Part shown: piece by piece, positions 49,958 to 58,863 of the stretch | Layout of the letters: every line of letters starts with the position of its first letter | Numbering within the stretch: position 1 is the first letter of the stretch | From: Leucobacter chromiisoli | Lineage (GTDB): Bacteria; Actinomycetota; Actinomycetes; Actinomycetales; Microbacteriaceae | DNA: 64,000 nucleotides | Reading direction: 5' to 3' | Assembly (NCBI RefSeq): GCF_016522505.1 | Contig: NZ_JAEHOH010000012.1 | Coordinates: 1-64,000, forward strand | The notes under the pieces: generated by a model | Seen by the model: only the letters and a program-made list of their open reading frames with translations | Told to the model about the DNA's origin: nothing | Database searches by the model: none | Position numbers and translations under genes: made by a program

Positions 49958-50040
49958 AGACCAGGCCTCCGGTGTTGAACTCGCGTGCCGCGCGCACGCC
50001 TGTGACGTTGTGGATCCGGTTCACCTAGACCAGGCCTCCG
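49958..50040. repeat. 69-base tandem duplication spanning the pheS-pheT junction
   Basis: agaccaggcctccg is found at 50027-50040 (pheS 3' end, overlapping its stop codon) and at 49958-49971 (just before the pheT ATG), exactly 69 bases apart, a multiple of three. The neighbouring ttcaac is also shared. The intergenic region thus looks like a decayed duplicate of the last 23 codons of pheS. Confidence 0.75.
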
Positions 50041-51065
50041 AACTGGGCGTTGAAGCGGATGTCGCCCTCGACCATGTCGCGCATGTCGTTGAGGTCGTGG
50101 CGGAACTGCAGGGTGCGCTCGATGCCCATGCCGAAGGCGAAGCCCTGGTACTCGTCGGGGTCGATGCCCGCAGCGGCGAGCACGTTCGGGTCGACCATGC
50201 CGCAGCCGCCCCACTCGACCCACCGGGCGCCGCCCTTGGCGTGCGGCTGCCACACGTCCATCTCGGCCGAGGGCTCGGTGAACGGGAAGAAGTTCGGACG
50301 CAGGCGGATCTCCGCCTCCTCGCCGAACATCTGGCGGGCGAAGTGCTCGAGTGTGCCCCGCAGGTGGGCCATCGTGAGGCCGCGGTCGATCGCGAGCCCC
50401 TCAATCTGCTGGAAGACCGGGGTGTGCGTCGCATCGAGCTCGTCGGTGCGGTAGACGCGACCGGGCGCGACGACGTAGACGGGCAGCTCGCGCTCGAGCA
50501 GCGCCCGGATCTGCACCGGCGAGGTGTGCGTGCGCAGCAGCAGGTGGCGGTCGGCCGGCTCGACGAAGAACGTGTCCTGCATCGCTCGCGCCGGGTGGTC
50601 GGGGTCGAAGCCGAGGGCGTCGAAGTTGAACCACTCGTGCTCGATCTCGGGGCCCTCGGCGACCTCCCAGCCCATGCCGATGAAGATGTCGGCCGCCTCG
50701 TCCTGCAGCTGGGCGAGGGGGTGGCGGGTCCCGGCGCGCCTGCGGACGGGGGCGGCCGTCACGTCGACCGTCTCGGCGACCAGGCGTTCGGCGGCCTCCT
50801 TCTCGGCGAGCTCGGCCTCGCGGCTCCGGTACGCGCCCTCGATGCGACCGCGGGCCTGGCCCATGAGCTTGCCGGTGGCGGCCTTCTCGTCCTTGGGCAC
50901 CTCGCGCATCCTGCGGTTCAGACCGGCGATGGCGGAGGCCTCCCCGGCGTGCTCGGTGCGGGCGGCTTTCAGCTCGGCGACGGTGCTAGCCGCGGCGAAG
51001 GCGGCGAGCGCCGCATCGACTGCGGCGTCGACCGCGTCCTGGGAGATCGGAGAAGTGTCTGACAC
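50025..51065 (-). CDS. pheS: Phenylalanyl-tRNA synthetase alpha subunit
   Basis: A 346-residue PheS catalytic subunit. An N-terminal coiled coil (about 10-85) binds tRNA; class II motifs follow: motif 1 (GWEVAEGPEIEHEWFNFDAL), motif 2 (VVAPGRVYRTDELDATHTPVFQQIEGL), and motif 3 (GFAFGMGIERTLQFRHDL). The chain ends GGLV. The GTG at 51065 (VSDTSPISQ) fits homologues; a TTG at 51074 is the in-frame alternative. A TAAGCT lies eight bases before the GTG, so this start may also be near-leaderless. It is followed by pheT after 68 bases. Confidence 0.95.
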   Translation of the reverse strand: MSDTSPISQDAVDAAVDAALAAFAAASTVAELKAARTEHAGEASAIAGLNRRMREVPKDEKAATGKLMGQARGRIEGAYRSREAELAEKEAAERLVAETVDVTAAPVRRRAGTRHPLAQLQDEAADIFIGMGWEVAEGPEIEHEWFNFDALGFDPDHPARAMQDTFFVEPADRHLLLRTHTSPVQIRALLERELPVYVVAPGRVYRTDELDATHTPVFQQIEGLAIDRGLTMAHLRGTLEHFARQMFGEEAEIRLRPNFFPFTEPSAEMDVWQPHAKGGARWVEWGGCGMVDPNVLAAAGIDPDEYQGFAFGMGIERTLQFRHDLNDMRDMVEGDIRFNAQFGGLV

Positions 51066-51137
51066 AGGGATCAAGCTTACCGTGCCCGGGCGCCGGGCCG
51101 GGGCGAAGCGTCCCCGACCCGGCCCCGGGTCGGCCGT

Positions 51138-53558
51138 CTACGCCCCGGCCTGCACGCGGTTGAGGAATCTCCTCGTGCGCTCCTCTCGAGGGCGGTCGAA
51201 GACCTCCTCGGCGGGCCCCTCCTCGACGATGACGCCCTGGTCCATGAACACCACCCAGTCGGCGACCTCGCGGGCGAAGCGCATCTCGTGGGTGACCACG
51301 ACCATCGTCAGCCCCTCGGCCGCGAGCTCGGTCATGACCCGCAGCACCTCGTCGACCAGCTCGGGGTCGAGCGCGCTCGTCGGCTCGTCGAACAGCAGCA
51401 CCTCCGGCTCCATCGCGAGCGCCCGGGCGATCGCGACGCGCTGCTGCTGACCGCCGGAGAGCTGATGCGGGTACTTGTCGGCGTGCGCGTCCATGCCCAC
51501 CTTCGCCAGCAGCTCGAGCGCGAGCGCACGGGTGTCGGCGCGGCTCGCGACGCGCAGGTAGTCGGGGGCGAAGGTGACGTTCTCGAGCACCGTCTGGTGC
51601 GGGAACAGGTTGAACTGCTGGAACACCATGCCGACCCGGGCGCGGGTCCTCGCGAGCACGCGATCCGGGGCCGGCCGGGCGGAGCCGTCCGCTGCGCGGG
51701 TGTATCCGACGGGCTCGCCGCGGTAGAGGACGTCGCCGCCGTCGATCTGCTCCATCGCGTTGAGGGTGCGGATCATGGTGGTCTTGCCCGATCCCGAGGG
51801 GCCGATCACGGCTACGACCTCGCCCCGGTGCACGTCGAGGTCGATGCCCTTGAGCACTTCGACGCTGCCGTACGACTTCCGCTCGTCCCTGACGCTGATG
51901 ACGACCTCGCCCTCGTGGGGCGTGCGCTCCCGCTTCGCAGCGGGCGGGATCACGTCGATCGAGGAGGTGGCGGTGCCGAGCCTCGCCCGCTTCCCGCGCC
52001 GGTTCACGTCGAGTCTGCGCTCCAGGTACTTCAGCGCCTGGTCGAAGACGGTGACGATCATGACGTAGAACACGCCGACCACGAGCAGCGTCTCGAGCAC
52101 CTTGAAGTTCTGGGTGTAGAGCCGCTGACCGACCAGCAGGATCTCGGTGAGCGAGATGGCCGAGACGAGCGACGTCAGCTTGATGATGGTGACGAGCTCG
52201 TTGCCGAGCGCGGGGAGGGCGACCCGGAACGCCTGCGGGATCACGATGAGCCGCTGCACGCCCCGCCACGGGATGCCGAGCGCCCGGCCCGCCTCGCCCT
52301 GCCCGCCCGCGACGGAGGACAGGCCGCCGCGGTGGATCTCCGAGATGTAGGCCGTCTCCGAGAGCACGAGGGCGATGAGTCCCGCCATGAAAGGGGATCC
52401 CACGATCGTGCGCAGCTCGGGGATCACCTGGGGCGCGTTGTAGACGAAGATGAGGAGCACCAGGAGCGGCAGCGAGCGGAAGAACCAGACGTAGACGCCC
52501 AGGATCCCGCGCAGCCACGCCTGCCGCGACTGGCGGCCGAGCGCGACGAGCATGCCGAGCACCGTCGAGATGGTCCAGGCGAGCGCGGAGAGCGCGAGCA
52601 CGGTGAGCGTCGCGTTCCAGAAGTCCGCGTGCGCGAAGAGGCTGAAGAAGTAGGGCCAGTCGAAGGAGAAGCCCCCGCCCGCGCTCGCGGCGTCGGCCTG
52701 CGATCCGAGCGCCTCTTCGACCGCCTCGGGATCCGGCTCCTCGAGGTTGTACTCGGTCAGCAGCGCCTGGTAGCTGCCGTCGGCGCGCATCTCGTCGAGC
52801 CCGGCGCGCAGCTGGTCCGCGAGCTCGGCGTTGCCCTGAGCCACCGCGATGCCGACCGGCACGGGGAAGAGCAGCTCCGTGCTCGTGAGCGCCAGCGCGC
52901 CGTTCGAGGAGTCCACGGCCGTCTTCCCCACGGCGGCGTCGGTGACCTGCACGTCGACCTGCCCGGCGAGGAGCGCCTGCGTCCCCTCGGTGTCGGCGGC
53001 GAAGTCGCGCACGTCGATCGCCCGCTCGCCGGCGTCGAGGCACTCCTGGCTCGCCTCGCCGCGCAGCTGGGTGGCGACCTCGCCGCCCTTGATCACGGCG
53101 ACGCTCAGCCCGCAGAGGTCGGAGGCGTCGCGCGCGGGCTCCGCGTCGGCGGGGGTGACGATCGAGTTGCCCGTCATGAAGTACGGGATGAAGTCGACGA
53201 GACGCGCACGGTCCTCGGTGATGTAGAGCGCGGAGGCGATGACGTCGAAGTGGCCGGCCTGGAGGTTCGGGACGAGCTGCTCGAAGCGGGTGTCGACGAA
53301 CTCGGCCTCGCGGTCGAGCTCGGCCGAGAGGCCCCGCATGAAGTCGGGATCGAAGCCGGAGGGCTCGTCGCCGTCGAGGTAGGCGTACGGCGGGTAGGTG
53401 AGGTCGGAGCCGATCCTGAGCGTCTCACCGCTCGCCGAGTCGTCGGCTTCGGCGGCCTGCGCCGTCTGGAGCGGCACGAGGACCGCGAGGATCGCCATGA
53501 CCACCGCGGCGAGAGCGGCGAACGCGCCGCGGGCACCGCGGACTCTTCTCTGAATCAT
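51138..53558 (-). CDS. Polar amino-acid-type ABC transporter: binding protein, permease and ATPase fused in one chain
   Basis: An 806-residue fusion. Residues 1-36 are a signal or anchor helix ending AQAAEA. About 45-275 is a family 3 solute-binding domain ([23 protein letters not shown]). About 315-515 is a His/Gln/Arg-type permease with the EAA loop ([14 protein letters not shown]). About 552-800 is the ATPase with GPSGSGKT (586-593), a [10 protein letters not shown]-loop, [19 protein letters not shown] and the H-loop THEM. All three parts appear intact. Homologous systems usually encode them separately, or fuse only binding protein and permease. It is divergent from a GntR regulator and a DUF1989 gene, suggesting a nitrogenous or guanidino-type substrate. 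Confidence 0.9.
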
Positions 53559-53578
53559 GCAGACGACGCTACGGATAG

Positions 53579-53757
53579 TTGAACAATTTTGTCAAGGTGA
53601 AGTTATGCAACACATTGGCGGGGCAATCGATCGTTTCTGCTTCCCCTCCCGCAAATCCCCTGCTTATCAGGGCCTGGAGGGCATGCTCACACGCGGCGCG
53701 CGCGGTCCCTGAGGTGCTGCCGTCCGCCAGATCGGAGTATATTGATGAACAATTGCT
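53579..53757. promoter_or_regulatory. Shared control region of the fused ABC transporter and gntR, with repeated TGAACAATT
   Basis: This AT-rich divergent region contains TTGAACAATTTTGTCAA (53579-53595), with TTGA/TCAA ends, close to the ABC start. A second site, gatgaacaattgctc (about 53743-53757), lies just before gntR. Both share TGAACAATT. A plus-strand TATATT near 53737 could be the gntR -10 box, which would put the second site at the transcription start. Binding by the adjacent GntR protein at both sites is the natural inference. Confidence 0.5.
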
Positions 53758-53769
53758 CGAGAAGTTGCT

Positions 53770-54564
53770 ATGATCGCCCTCATGATCCAGAGTTCTGCGT
53801 TCGCGGGGCCCGCCGGCTCCGCCGCGGAGACGGTGCTGCACGCGCTGCGCCGGCGCATCATCGAGGGGGGCATCCCGCCCGGGGCGCGGCTCGTCGACGC
53901 CACCGTCGCCGAGCAGCACGGCGTCTCCCGCAATACCGCGCGCGACGCGCTCCGCCTCCTCGCCGCCGACGGACTCGCGGTCTCCGTGCGCAACGCCGGC
54001 TACTCGGTGCGCGAGCTGACGGTGGAGGACATCCGCGATCTCTACACCGCCCGCCGCATCGTCGAGGCCGGCGCCGTCCAGCAGAGCGTCTCCGCCGCCT
54101 CCGAGCTGTTCGAGCGGGTCGAGCAGGCCGTCGCGCGCACCGAGGCCAGCGTGCGCGCCGGCGACTGGTCGCAGGTCGGCACCGGCAGCCTCGACTTCCA
54201 CCGCGCCCTCGTGGGGCTCGCCATGTCGTCGAGCCTCGACCGCTTCTTCGTCGGCACCGTGGCGCAGCTCCGGCTCGCGTTCGCCGTGATCCCCGACGAG
54301 GGCGCGTTCCAGGTGCAGTGGGTGCCGCGCGACCGGGAGATCGCCGAGCTCGTGCTCTCGGGTGCGCGCGAGGAGGCGGCCGCCGCGCTCGCCTCCTACC
54401 TCGACGACTCCGAGGCCCGCGTGATCGACGCGATCCGGGCCGCCAACCGCGCGCGGCACCGCAGCGCCGCAGCGGCATCGGGCGCCGCGGGCGACGAGGA
54501 CGACGCCGACCGAGACCCCCACGACGCATCATCATCAACCGAGAGGACCGGGAGAACACCATGA
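53770..54564 (+). CDS. GntR-family (FadR/FCD) transcription regulator
   Basis: A 264-residue regulator. The winged helix-turn-helix (about 18-85) shows VLHALRRRIIEGGIPPGARL, DATVAEQHGVSRNTARDALRLLAADGLA and RNAGYSV. The FCD ligand domain (about 88-225) includes IRDLYTARRIVEAGAV and DFHRALVGLA, with several Asp/His candidates for metal binding. The tail is Ala/Asp-rich. Its stop overlaps the DUF1989 start (ATGA), so regulator and enzyme are made together. It probably senses the transported substrate or product and represses both arms. An alternative start at 53782 is in frame. Confidence 0.87.
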   Translation: MIALMIQSSAFAGPAGSAAETVLHALRRRIIEGGIPPGARLVDATVAEQHGVSRNTARDALRLLAADGLAVSVRNAGYSVRELTVEDIRDLYTARRIVEAGAVQQSVSAASELFERVEQAVARTEASVRAGDWSQVGTGSLDFHRALVGLAMSSSLDRFFVGTVAQLRLAFAVIPDEGAFQVQWVPRDREIAELVLSGAREEAAAALASYLDDSEARVIDAIRAANRARHRSAAAASGAAGDEDDADRDPHDASSSTERTGRTP

Positions 54565-55415
54565 CCGAACAGAACGGGCGGGTCGCCGCGCTCACCGAGG
54601 CCGCCTACAAGGGGCCGGCGCTCGAGGTGGACCGCGACTTCTACGGTGCGATCGCGCGCGAGTCCGGAGCCCGCACCCTCGTCGACTCGTTCGAGATCCC
54701 GATCCGATCGGGGCGGGCCTGGGAGGTGCCCGCGGGGCACGTCTGCCGGCTGCTCACCGTCGACGGCCCCCAGGTGGGCGACCTCAACGTGTGGAACCGG
54801 CACAACCCCCGCGAGCGCTTCTGGGCGGCCCGCACCCGGCAGCTGCAGGCCGCGCACGTCACCACCTTCGACCGGCTGTGGTCGAACCTGCCCTATCTGC
54901 GCCCGCTCGTCACGATCACCGCGGACACCCTCGAGGACTACGGCACCGACGCCGAGGGCGGGCGCGTGCACGACACGCTGGGCACGCGCTGCGACCCCTA
55001 CGTCAACCGCATGCTCACGGGAGAGGACTTCGACTACCACTGCCACTCGAACCTCACCCGCGCCGTGCGCCCCTTCGGCCTCACGGAGTTCGATGTGCAC
55101 GACGTGCTCAACGTCTTCCAGTGCACGGGCCTCAACGAGCAGGACCAGTACTTCATGAAGACCTGCCCGGCGCGGGTCGGCGACTACTTCGAGATGTTCG
55201 CCGAGCAGGATCTGCTCATGGCCCTCTCGACCTGCCCCGGAGGCGACCTCTCGGTGCCGATGTGGGGCGACGGCGCGCACGATCCGGTCGAGGTCTGCCG
55301 CCCGATCGGCGTCGAGGTGTACCGGATCGATGAGGAGCTGCTCGGGGGCTGGTCGCAGCCGCCCTTCCCCGAGTACGCGGGCGGGCACGCGCTCGTCGAG
55401 CGCCCCTGGGCGTAG
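54561..55415 (+). CDS. DUF1989 (urea carboxylase-associated type) enzyme
   Basis: A 284-residue DUF1989 protein. The core reads IRSGRAWEVPAGHVCRLLTVDGPQVGDL, WAARTRQLQ, LGTRCDPY, YHCHSNLTRAV, DVLNVFQCTG and DYFEMFAEQDLLMALSTCPGGD split along the chain. Candidate metal or catalytic residues are Cys144, His160, Cys161, His162, Cys188, Cys202 and Cys225. The paired DUF1989 proteins beside urea carboxylase act, as I recall, as carboxyguanidine deiminase subunits (CgdA/CgdB). This single-chain version may act on a related guanidino or ureido compound. It is coupled to gntR by a four-base overlap and faces a fused ABC importer. Confidence 0.8.
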   Translation: MTEQNGRVAALTEAAYKGPALEVDRDFYGAIARESGARTLVDSFEIPIRSGRAWEVPAGHVCRLLTVDGPQVGDLNVWNRHNPRERFWAARTRQLQAAHVTTFDRLWSNLPYLRPLVTITADTLEDYGTDAEGGRVHDTLGTRCDPYVNRMLTGEDFDYHCHSNLTRAVRPFGLTEFDVHDVLNVFQCTGLNEQDQYFMKTCPARVGDYFEMFAEQDLLMALSTCPGGDLSVPMWGDGAHDPVEVCRPIGVEVYRIDEELLGGWSQPPFPEYAGGHALVERPWA

Positions 55416-56238: not shown

Positions 56239-56964
56239 ATGTCTTCGCACACCCATGTCCAGAACACCCCGGGCGCTCCCCTCGGCGGCCTGTCCGCCGT
56301 CGCGCCCTCGCGCCCCCGAGCGCTCGTCGTCGCGGCCACGGCCCTGACGGCCGCCGCGGCGCTCTGCCTCCCCGCCGCGCCGGCGCTCGCCCACGATGAG
56401 CTCGTCGACACCGGCTTCGTCATCGACCCGGCCGACGGCTCGCTCGAGGCCGTGCAGCTCACCTTCAACAACGAGGTGCTGACCGTCGGCACCGAGATCG
56501 TCGTGAGCGGCCCCGACGGGGCCGACGCCGCCGACGGCGACCCCGAGCACCGGGGTCGCGACGTGCTGCAGCCGCTCACCGCCGATCTCTCCGAGGGCGG
56601 CTACGACGTCGTCTGGCGCGTGGTGTCGAGCGACGGCCACCCCATCGAGGGCGCCTTCTCGTTCGAATTCGAGGAGGGGCAGACGGAGCCCCCGGCGATC
56701 CAGCCCTTCGACGAGGAGGCCTCCGCCCCCTCGGAGGAGGCGGAGGAGCCGGAATCGGAGGCGCCCGCCGAGCACGAGCACGGCGAGGGGGACGAGCACG
56801 ACGCCGATGAGGTGGCATCGCCGGGCGGCGTCTGGCCGGCCGTCCTGATCGGCGCGGGCGGACTCGCCGCCGTCCTCGCGGTCCTGGCCGTCCTCGGGCG
56901 GAGGAGGCGCCGCGCCGCGGCGCAGCCCGGCTCCGCGACGAGCGAGGAAGGCGGCGAGCGATGA
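56239..56964 (+). CDS. CopC-domain copper-binding exported protein with membrane anchor
   Basis: A 241-residue CopC/YobA-type protein. A signal sequence (about 27-51) ends ALA with His52 as the predicted first mature residue, which is the typical Cu(II) ligand. The CopC beta-sandwich runs to about 145 and includes GTEIVVSGPDG and VVSSDGHPIEG, whose Asp132 and His134 are the other ligands. An acidic His-containing linker (AEHEHGEGDEHDADE) and one C-terminal membrane helix with a basic tail follow. It probably holds extracytoplasmic copper. No CopD domain or gene follows. The stop overlaps the next start as ATGA. Confidence 0.88.
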   Translation: MSSHTHVQNTPGAPLGGLSAVAPSRPRALVVAATALTAAAALCLPAAPALAHDELVDTGFVIDPADGSLEAVQLTFNNEVLTVGTEIVVSGPDGADAADGDPEHRGRDVLQPLTADLSEGGYDVVWRVVSSDGHPIEGAFSFEFEEGQTEPPAIQPFDEEASAPSEEAEEPESEAPAEHEHGEGDEHDADEVASPGGVWPAVLIGAGGLAAVLAVLAVLGRRRRRAAAQPGSATSEEGGER

Positions 56965-57557
56965 TCCCGAACCGCACCCGGGCCGCCACCGCCGCAGCGC
57001 TGCTCGCCCTGACCGCGCCGCTGCTCGCGAGCTGCGGCGCGGCTGATGATCCCGCCCCCGCCGCGACCGAGGAGGCGGCGGCCGCGGACGCGGTGCAGCT
57101 GCACGACGGCTGGGCGAAGGCCGGCGAGGGGATGACGGGGGTGTTCGGCACGATCGAGAACACCGGCGACGCGCCCCTCGTGCTCGAGAGCGCGTCGAGC
57201 GACGCCGCGGGCGTCGTCGAACTGCACGAGACCTCGACGAGCGGCGGGAACGCCACGATGAGCGAGATCGAGGGCGGGTTCGAGATCCCCGCCGGCGGCT
57301 CCCTCGAGCTCTCGCCCGGCGGCGACCACATCATGCTCATGGAGATGCCCGAGCCTCTGCTCGCGGGCGACGAGGTGCGGCTGACCCTTCACTTCGGCGA
57401 CGGCTCCACCGCCGAGGTCGGCGTGCTGGTGAAGGACTTCGCCGGCGCACAGGAGAACTACGAGAACCTCGAGGGCGGCGACGACTCCTCGGGCGACGGG
57501 GAGCACTCCGAGCACGGCGACCACTCCGAGCACGGAGACGAGCATGCCGGGCACTAG
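56961..57557 (+). CDS. PCuAC-type periplasmic copper chaperone lipoprotein
   Basis: A 198-residue lipoprotein (lipobox LLASC, Cys25) with a PCuAC domain. The Cu(I) motif is complete: His89-x10-Met100-x22-His123-x-Met125. The C-terminus is a His/Glu/Asp-rich tail (EHSEHGDHSEHGDEHAGH) that would add copper-binding capacity. PCuAC proteins deliver copper to the CuA or CuB site of cytochrome oxidase. It overlaps copC by four bases and the DyP peroxidase gene by 14, so the three are one translational unit. Confidence 0.9.
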   Translation: MIPNRTRAATAAALLALTAPLLASCGAADDPAPAATEEAAAADAVQLHDGWAKAGEGMTGVFGTIENTGDAPLVLESASSDAAGVVELHETSTSGGNATMSEIEGGFEIPAGGSLELSPGGDHIMLMEMPEPLLAGDEVRLTLHFGDGSTAEVGVLVKDFAGAQENYENLEGGDDSSGDGEHSEHGDHSEHGDEHAGH

Positions 57558-58863
57558 CCCGGAGGCCTCCGAGAACCGTCCCGCCGTCGCCCGCCGCGCC
57601 CTCCTCACGGGAGGCGCGGCGGGCGTCGGGACGCTGCTCGGCCTGGGCGCCGGGCTCGGGATCCCGGCGCTGCGCGACCGGGGGACTCCTCAGGCCGGGC
57701 CTCCCGGCGGCGTCGACCCCTCCCCCGAGGCCGACCGCTCCTCGGGGATCGGAGGCGAGCTGCCCGGCTTCGGCGGCGAGGCCCTGCCGTGCCACGGCGC
57801 CCACCAGGCGGGCGTCACGACCACCCCGCCCGCGGCGCACGCCCGTTACGTCTCGTACCGGCTCAGGCCCGAGACGGACCGCGACGGCATCCGGCGCATG
57901 CTCCGGATCCTCACCGGCGACGTCGAGGGGCTCGCCTCAGGGACGGGGCCGCTCGCCGACCCCGAGCCGGAGCTCGCGGCGCGTCCCGCACGGCTCACCG
58001 TGACCGTCGGGGTGGGACCGGGCCTCGTGGATCGCGTGGATCCCCTGAAGCGCCCCGAGTGGCTCGCCCCGCTGCCGCCGTTCTCGCGCGACCGCCTCAG
58101 CGGGCAGCACGACGGCGGCGACCTGCTCGTGCTGCTGCAGGCCGACGATCCGCTCCCCATCGCGCACGCCGCGCGCATGCTGGCCCGCGACCTCGCGAGC
58201 TTCGCCGAGCCGCTGTGGACCCAGCAGGGCTTCCGGCAGGCTCGAGGAGCGGAGGCCGGGGGCACGACGATGCGCAACCTCATGGGGCAGGTCGACGGCA
58301 CCGTCAATCCGTCGCCCGCCGACGAGGACTTCGACGGTCTCGTGTGGATCGGCGGCGCTCCGGAGGACGCGTCCCGGGACGGCCGCGGCGGCGCGGGCGC
58401 CTGGCTCGAGGGCGGGACCGCGCTCGTGCTGCGCCGCATCCGCATGGAGCTCGACACCTGGGACCAGGTCGACCGACCGGGGCGGGAGCAGACGATCGGC
58501 CGCAGGCTCGACACGGGCGCACCCCTCACGGGCGGGGACGAGCACACGCCGGTCGACTACGAGGCCCGCAACGCGCTCGGCCTGACGGTGATCCCGAGCT
58601 TCGCGCACGTGCGCCGCGCGCACTCGGAGGATCCCGACGAGCGCATCTTCCGCCGCGCCGTCAACTACGACGACGGCGCGGAGTCGGGCCTGCTCTTCGC
58701 CTGCTACCAGCGGAACCCGCTCAGGCAGTTCGTGCCGATCCAGCGGCGGCTCGACGAGCTCGACCTGCTCAACGAGTGGGTGACCCACACCGGCTCGGCG
58801 GTGTTCGCGATCCTGCCCGGCTTCGAACCGGGCGAGACGCTCGGCGCCGCGCTGCTCGAGTGA
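57544..58863 (+). CDS. Tat-exported DyP-type heme peroxidase (EfeB-like)
   Basis: A 439-residue dye-decolorizing peroxidase. A twin-arginine signal (Arg17-Arg18 in VARRALLTGG followed by a Gly/Ala/Leu helix) targets folded, heme-loaded enzyme to the Tat pathway. The DyP signature GQVDG with the catalytic Asp is in MRNLMGQVDGTVNP, and the proximal heme His is in PSFAHVRRAH (about 354). The family oxidises varied substrates with peroxide; EfeB members deal with iron or heme. Its 14-base overlap with the copper chaperone gene suggests co-expression with copper handling. No efeU or efeO gene is present here. Confidence 0.9.
   Translation: MPGTSPEASENRPAVARRALLTGGAAGVGTLLGLGAGLGIPALRDRGTPQAGPPGGVDPSPEADRSSGIGGELPGFGGEALPCHGAHQAGVTTTPPAAHARYVSYRLRPETDRDGIRRMLRILTGDVEGLASGTGPLADPEPELAARPARLTVTVGVGPGLVDRVDPLKRPEWLAPLPPFSRDRLSGQHDGGDLLVLLQADDPLPIAHAARMLARDLASFAEPLWTQQGFRQARGAEAGGTTMRNLMGQVDGTVNPSPADEDFDGLVWIGGAPEDASRDGRGGAGAWLEGGTALVLRRIRMELDTWDQVDRPGREQTIGRRLDTGAPLTGGDEHTPVDYEARNALGLTVIPSFAHVRRAHSEDPDERIFRRAVNYDDGAESGLLFACYQRNPLRQFVPIQRRLDELDLLNEWVTHTGSAVFAILPGFEPGETLGAALLE

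Follow-up and report, generated by a model that had tools for sequence, protein, structure and literature searches.

Within a 64,000-nucleotide stretch of the Leucobacter chromiisoli genome (contig NZ_JAEHOH010000012.1, positions 1 to 64,000; referred to throughout as the window), a single polypeptide combining the binding protein, permease and ATPase of an ATP-binding cassette (ABC) importer is encoded divergently from a gene pair that specifies a GntR-type regulator and a protein of the DUF1989 family. Examination of this locus (positions 51138 to 55415) and of its relatives indicates that it is probably the transport, sensing and accessory-enzyme portion of a PxpR-type regulon for 5-oxoproline (pyroglutamate), in which the importer would bring in 5-oxoproline or a precursor and the DUF1989 protein would feed 5-oxoprolinase. 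While a preliminary description of the locus had proposed a self-contained uptake and catabolic system for a guanidino or ureido nutrient, two features absent from that description point elsewhere: (i) the short repeats between the divergent genes each form half of an operator of a recognized type; and (ii) partner genes, those for 5-oxoprolinase, reside on another contig of the same genome and beside the fused importer gene in relatives, which does not support a self-contained system at the window locus.

The sequence TGAACAATT, which had been recognized as a repeat near both gene starts, occurs exactly twice in the window (at positions 53580 and 53746), against 0.01 occurrences expected in shuffled sequence. 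Each copy is contained within a 13-base site resembling the operator bound by PxpR of Corynebacterium glutamicum; in that system the operator is the palindrome agattgttcaacaatct, its deletion or alteration derepresses the pxpT promoter, and PxpR itself senses 5-oxoproline, which it binds with a KD of 726 nM (PMC13274462). The site before the importer gene (ATTGTTCAACTAT, positions 53575 to 53587, minus strand) agrees with the C. glutamicum site at 12 of its 13 core bases and at 14 of all 17, and that before gntR (ATTGTTCATCAAT, positions 53741 to 53753, minus strand) at 12 and 13, respectively, the core being the inner 13 bases of the 17-base site, a boundary of our own choosing. Both lie 16 bases from the start codon that they face, if the first ATG is taken as the start of gntR. 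The gntR gene (positions 53770 to 54564, plus strand) encodes a GntR helix-turn-helix domain followed by a C-terminal FCD domain, as recognized by Pfam, and the palindromic operators between regulator and transporter have a counterpart before pxpA and pxpBC, which in this genome lie on contig C8 and not at the window locus. The GntR/FCD protein is thus likely to be a PxpR-type repressor, an assignment that rests on its domains and on the co-occurrence of the operator.

The distribution of the operator further connects the regulator to its presumed targets. Across the organism's own genome (G000; 3.35 Mb in 42 contigs), only three sites were found with no more than one mismatch, two of them those in the window and the third upstream of pxpA on contig C8; when two mismatches were allowed, another four places matched, and the pattern read backwards matches nowhere in those 3.35 Mb. 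In a set of 57 DUF1989 loci (862,514 bases), where up to two mismatches were allowed within the searched interval, the operator was present at 18 of the 19 loci with an adjacent GntR homologue (at 15 with no more than one mismatch) and at none of the 38 without one; the sole GntR-bearing locus that lacks it (L065) encodes a GntR protein that is 26% identical. One further site with at most one mismatch was located in the 862,514 bases, before a second GntR gene and NRAMP-pxpA genes in Gulosibacter (L032), and sites with two mismatches occur away from DUF1989 in three loci (L040, L046 and L068).

Gene neighbourhoods lead to the same pathway. The GntR-DUF1989 pair is divergent from the fused importer in all ten genomes found to carry the fusion, and within the genus the identical four of 54 genomes carry both fusion and DUF1989; the linkage of regulator and DUF1989 to the transporter, on which the preliminary description made its proposal depend, is consistent as far as sequence can tell. 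In five of the ten carriers (L030, L031, L033, L035 and L099), pxpA and a fused pxpBC, which encode 5-oxoprolinase, follow the fusion directly on the same strand, accompanied in three of them (L033, L035 and L099) by a biotin carboxylase gene. In a sixth carrier, Gulosibacter, pxpA belongs to a neighbouring NRAMP-pxpA operon: past the fusion lie genes for another GntR protein, an NRAMP protein, PxpA and a DUF1445 protein and, at the contig end, a piece of pxpBC. In a Leucobacter metagenome-assembled genome (MAG), the contig ends at the locus. On contig C8 of the organism's own genome (L087:5086-10355), another GntR/FCD gene is accompanied by pxpA, a fused pxpBC and a gene for a biotin carboxylase with a biotin domain. 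More widely, pxpA lies within the examined stretch at 16 of the 57 DUF1989 loci, several of which are near relatives and hence not independent, and PxpA is encoded somewhere in 46 of the 49 genomes that have this DUF1989, compared with 65 of 296 genomes in a sample of the phylum. Plasmids of Klebsiella pneumoniae (L101, L104 and L110) carry genes for a receptor, a permease-ATPase, GntR and DUF1989, then GntR, NRAMP and PxpA, along with hydro-lyase, urea-amidolyase-family (PxpBC-like) and biotin carboxylase genes; there one operator stands before the receptor gene and another before the NRAMP-pxpA genes, which is the strongest evidence that different phyla share the regulon. In Azospirillum ramasamyi (L105:6974-8478), a DUF1989 gene whose product is 74% identical overlaps pcp, encoding pyroglutamyl-peptidase I, by one base. 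A locus recorded under the title of a Bifidobacterium breve MAG (L043) displays a gene order around DUF1989 like that of small actinobacterial MAGs (L040 and L046), and its label looks doubtful.

The importer gene (positions 51138 to 53558, minus strand) is a single open frame of 806 residues, in which Pfam detects, each beyond its own curated cut-off, an SBP_bac_3 receptor domain (residues 47 to 270, positions 52749 to 53420, E 6.7e-31), a BPD_transp_1 permease domain (residues 332 to 517, positions 52008 to 52565, E 1.2e-19) and an ABC_tran ATPase domain (residues 569 to 728, positions 51375 to 51854, E 2.1e-34), all on the minus strand. Alignment with unfused relatives places a short and variable linker at approximately residues 285 to 298 (positions 52665 to 52706, minus strand), at the point where in those relatives the receptor gene stops and the permease-ATPase gene begins, and a hydrophobic N-terminal segment before the receptor domain (residues 12 to 30) looks like a signal peptide. 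The catalytic ATPase motifs are intact, and comprise the Walker A motif (586 to 593), FQQ (646), LSGGQ (700), Walker B (720 to 725) and the H-loop (755). The three domains, their key motifs and the coordinates that had been assigned to them at the outset are accordingly correct, and they are those of a type I ABC amino-acid importer, for which transport and substrate binding are predicted. When the fusion was compared with the Protein Data Bank (PDB), the best 60 of 277 matching sequences covered the ATPase part only; an AlphaFold2 model of the fusion (nine rows; mean pLDDT 51.2, pTM 0.35) was not used.

The expectation that a full fusion would be unusual was borne out by searches of three samples, in each of which the organism's own genome was counted. 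A match at threshold was found in six of 54 genomes of the genus, three of 396 in a sample of the order and two of 396 in a sample of the phylum, and a full fusion in four, two and one of these, respectively; the thresholds were strict (E 1e-110 to 1e-125) and two candidates per genome were scored in the order and phylum samples, so that very divergent fusions could have been missed. The ten carriers, of which nine possess a complete copy, comprise the window, Leucobacter ruminantium and L. edaphi (full-length fusions with 80% and 79% identity), Gulosibacter sediminis, Arthrobacter mobilis, A. terrae, Arthrobacter sp. AQ5-05, Zafaria cholistanensis, a genome of the order (G480), and the Leucobacter MAG, where contig ends split the fusion, leaving receptor and permease on one contig and the ATPase on another. 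The eight other complete copies are 70 to 80% identical to that of the window and align with it without interruption, while the linker varies. The chance that an error of sequencing or assembly, such as a frameshift, produced the single frame is in consequence negligible: nine complete and uninterrupted copies across species argue against it as far as sequence can tell, and no point in its favour was found. The single-chain importer is, almost certainly, real, rare and conserved. Four matches to the fusion contain stops and were not counted as fusions in these searches: L013 of G044, in three frames; L097 of G699, in three separate stretches; L098 of G809; and L012 of G022, another Leucobacter genome. 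In G022 (L027:6394-8973, minus strand), a single frame of 860 residues encodes both a distant receptor and its permease, next to a separate ATPase gene, which corresponds to a receptor-permease fusion of the better known kind.

Outside the carrier genera, the closest relatives found (including L083, from Prauserella) are encoded by two adjacent genes, one for the receptor and one for a permease-ATPase, and the end of the Klebsiella plasmid receptor and the start of its permease align near the short linker of the fused proteins. The importer would therefore have arisen by the joining of a receptor gene to a downstream permease-ATPase gene. In an unrooted FastTree phylogeny of the permease-ATPase halves, nine fused and four unfused proteins are separated with a support of 1.000, as would be expected of a single fusion event. 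No description of a single-chain importer comprising receptor, permease and ATPase was found in a literature search of titles and abstract beginnings.

The DUF1989 gene (positions 54561 to 55415, plus strand) encodes a protein of 284 residues (PF09347, E 1e-56) and shares with gntR the four bases ATGA (positions 54561 to 54564), confirming the overlap that had been described. Across 58 aligned rows, that of the window among them, three cysteines (C144, C161 and C225) and an aspartate (D74) are never substituted (as many as three rows may carry a gap), and the cysteines match by spacing the zinc ligands C263, C279 and C343 of the trimethylamine N-oxide (TMAO) demethylase Tdm (PMC12560246). The protein is accordingly a member of the family by its model and by this zinc-site triad, with a predicted metal site. 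Its closest solved relative is PDB entry 3DI4 (E 1.7e-71), the title of which names no function, and a search of literature titles and abstract beginnings returned nothing linking DUF1989 to 5-oxoproline.

Taken together, these features suggest the following scheme. A PxpR-type repressor would bind one operator before gntR-DUF1989 and one before the importer, and would be released by 5-oxoproline or its precursor; the importer, of which two chains could plausibly form one transporter with two tethered receptors, would take up 5-oxoproline or a compound from which it is formed. The DUF1989 protein would be a metal-dependent enzyme supplying the ATP-dependent 5-oxoprolinase (PxpA, PxpBC), which, encoded on another contig behind the same type of operator, would then give glutamate. 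PxpT and YcsG, both required for 5-oxoproline uptake, are of the NRAMP family (PMC13274462); since an NRAMP-family protein is also encoded near the ABC importer in Gulosibacter and on the Klebsiella plasmids, the importer may carry a precursor.

A number of observations weigh against assignment to a 5-oxoproline regulon. No pxp gene was seen at the window locus, and in the window's genome (contig C8) and two other carriers (L034 and L036) pxpA lies elsewhere in the genome and was not found beside the fusion; at 41 of the 57 DUF1989 loci it was not found within the examined stretch. The comparison of PxpA frequencies used an unmatched phylum sample that was searched at a stricter E-value, and the 49 genomes with DUF1989 include several Gammaproteobacteria. 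Fourteen pxpA loci from the phylum sample served as a control: two of them (L123, and L133 with two mismatches) have the operator, both with a GntR homologue, and its absence from the 12 loci without GntR indicates that the operator follows the regulator and not pxpA as such. The organism's own genome encodes two GntR paralogues, 37% identical, each with an operator nearby. Other neighbourhoods are diverse: receptor, permease-ATPase and arginase-family genes lie in a row before LysR and DUF1989 genes in Prauserella aidingensis (L083:2806-6464); unfused relatives of the transporter in Rhizobiaceae adjoin diaminopropionate ammonia-lyase and peptidase genes; and DUF1989 elsewhere neighbours alanine dehydrogenase (Yaniella), an AMP-binding enzyme (Brevibacterium), or MFS and amino acid permeases. 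The best NCBIfam match of the importer's ATPase is EhuA, of an ectoine transporter, although at 317.9 bits it falls short of the cut-off of 345.4. Finally, C. glutamicum grows on 5-oxoproline by way of pxpTABC, and no DUF1989 protein is named in the accessible part of that report (PMC13274462), which implies that DUF1989 is probably not needed for 5-oxoproline itself; it probably adds something, most simply an entry step.

These same observations bear on other solutes that the importer might carry. Uptake of a guanidino or ureido compound that DUF1989 would then deiminate, as originally proposed, now appears very unlikely. While a carboxyguanidine deiminase does belong to the DUF1989 family (as cited in PMC11271267), the arginase-family gene adjoins the unfused Prauserella transporter, and the carboxyltransferase and biotin carboxylase set on contig C8 may resemble a split urea-carboxylase-like enzyme, the DUF1989 protein of the window falls far short of both models for urea-amidolyase-associated proteins, the carboxyguanidine deiminases (52.2 bits, with a cut-off of 284.7, for TIGR03424 and 43.8, with a cut-off of 205.95, for TIGR03425). 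A protein search of the organism's genome recovered one DUF1989, and Rfam at gathering scores returned no family in five sources, and hence no known guanidine riboswitch there. Because of these scores, the one DUF1989 recovered by protein search, the Rfam result and the operators, which together with the linked pxp genes point to 5-oxoproline, this explanation was set aside. Uptake of some unrelated amino acid or ectoine-like solute by an importer that has no more than its regulator in common with the 5-oxoproline genes is, similarly, highly improbable: EhuA is the best named model of the ATPase, and in Bradyrhizobium a distant DUF1989 (46% identical) is preceded by Ehu-type genes, but the unmet EhuA cut-off and the position of pxpA and pxpBC directly after the fusion in five carriers speak against it.

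A further candidate, which we regard as unlikely, is that DUF1989 deiminates the cyclic amidine 5-amino-3,4-dihydro-2H-pyrrole-2-carboxylate (ADPC, or 5-iminoproline) to 5-oxoproline and ammonia, and that the importer carries ADPC or related cyclic amidines. Deimination is a known reaction of the family, the expected product is the substrate of the 5-oxoprolinase whose genes share clusters with DUF1989, and the nearby NRAMP proteins of Gulosibacter and Klebsiella leave the ABC system free to carry something else. Ectoine synthase (EctC) can form ADPC from glutamine, but does so with very low efficiency and with an equilibrium that favours glutamine (PMC5924519). Nothing encountered in this analysis indicates that ADPC occurs naturally. 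EctC is encoded in 41 of 50 genomes tested (48 or 49 with DUF1989 loci, plus the organism's own), a figure that stands without a background rate and in which many hosts are halophiles, and it is absent from all five non-Leucobacter fusion carriers tested (L032 to L036). In four small actinobacterial MAG genomes ectC lies downstream of glnA, immediately so in two (L114 and L116) and separated by a peptidase-like gene in the other two (L113 and L117), and no match to ectA or ectB was found in any of these stretches. The same genomes have DUF1989 beside pxpA; of these loci, L040 and L042 also contain pxpBC, which was not found in L038 or L046. In Yaniella, DUF1989 lies 1.0 to 1.7 kb from the ectC gene of an ectABC cluster, and no PxpA was found in these genomes; this arrangement and the ectC-glnA pairs are suggestive of ADPC. 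Were it correct, this DUF1989 subfamily would be a cyclic-amidine deiminase that receives its substrate through a one-chain importer and passes its product on to 5-oxoprolinase; ADPC, which has been described as a synthetic EctC product, would serve as a nutrient or solute in nature; and orphan EctC proteins could make it in bacteria with ectC beside glnA. As a separate observation, a single frame in each of two Yaniella genomes (L063:4620-6572 and L073:10946-12796, both minus strand) encodes EctA followed by EctB, next to ectC and not far from DUF1989, and so suggests that the two proteins are fused.

Beyond the importer gene (positions 50025 to 51138), a frame that by eye resembles pheS begins on the same strand 63 bases past the end of the importer gene, and a pheT-like frame comes next, so that read-through from the importer is possible. 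On the other side, frames at positions 56239 to 58863 resemble by eye those for CopC, a PCuAC-like copper protein and a Dyp-type peroxidase.

The importer and its probable place in a 5-oxoproline regulon can be set against several known systems. In importers of the GlnPQ and OpuA type, receptor domains are tethered to the permease chain and the ATPase is a separate protein; a one-polypeptide importer fixes receptor, channel and motor at equal numbers, could be purified as a single protein, and would be a convenient object for studying how tethered receptors feed an ABC importer. The receptor and permease-ATPase pairs of Klebsiella plasmids and Rhizobiaceae resemble it at 40 to 41% (receptor) and 53 to 56% (permease-ATPase) identity, but are encoded there by two genes and here by one, and the Klebsiella plasmids further share GntR, DUF1989, PxpA and the operator with the Leucobacter system. 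With the carboxyguanidine deiminase subunits (UAAP1 and UAAP2) the Leucobacter enzyme has the DUF1989 family in common, while scoring far below both models, and a protein search found no second DUF1989. Assignment to the regulon provides a testable substrate for a DUF1989 subfamily that occurs in settings as far apart as Actinobacteria and Klebsiella plasmids. Should 5-oxoproline be what the importer carries, it would represent a third type of transporter for that compound, beside the NRAMP-like carriers and TRAP receptors discussed in the C. glutamicum report (PMC13274462). The likeness to pxpTABC and PxpR of that organism lies in a divergent GntR-type regulator, a near-identical palindromic operator (14 and 13 of 17 bases), a transporter behind the operator, and pxp genes in the regulon. 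Unlike the Leucobacter system, with its single-chain ABC importer, its DUF1989 protein and its pxp genes on another contig, the C. glutamicum system, in the part of the report available, employs a transporter of the NRAMP family with the pxp genes adjacent, and no DUF1989 is mentioned there (PMC13274462).

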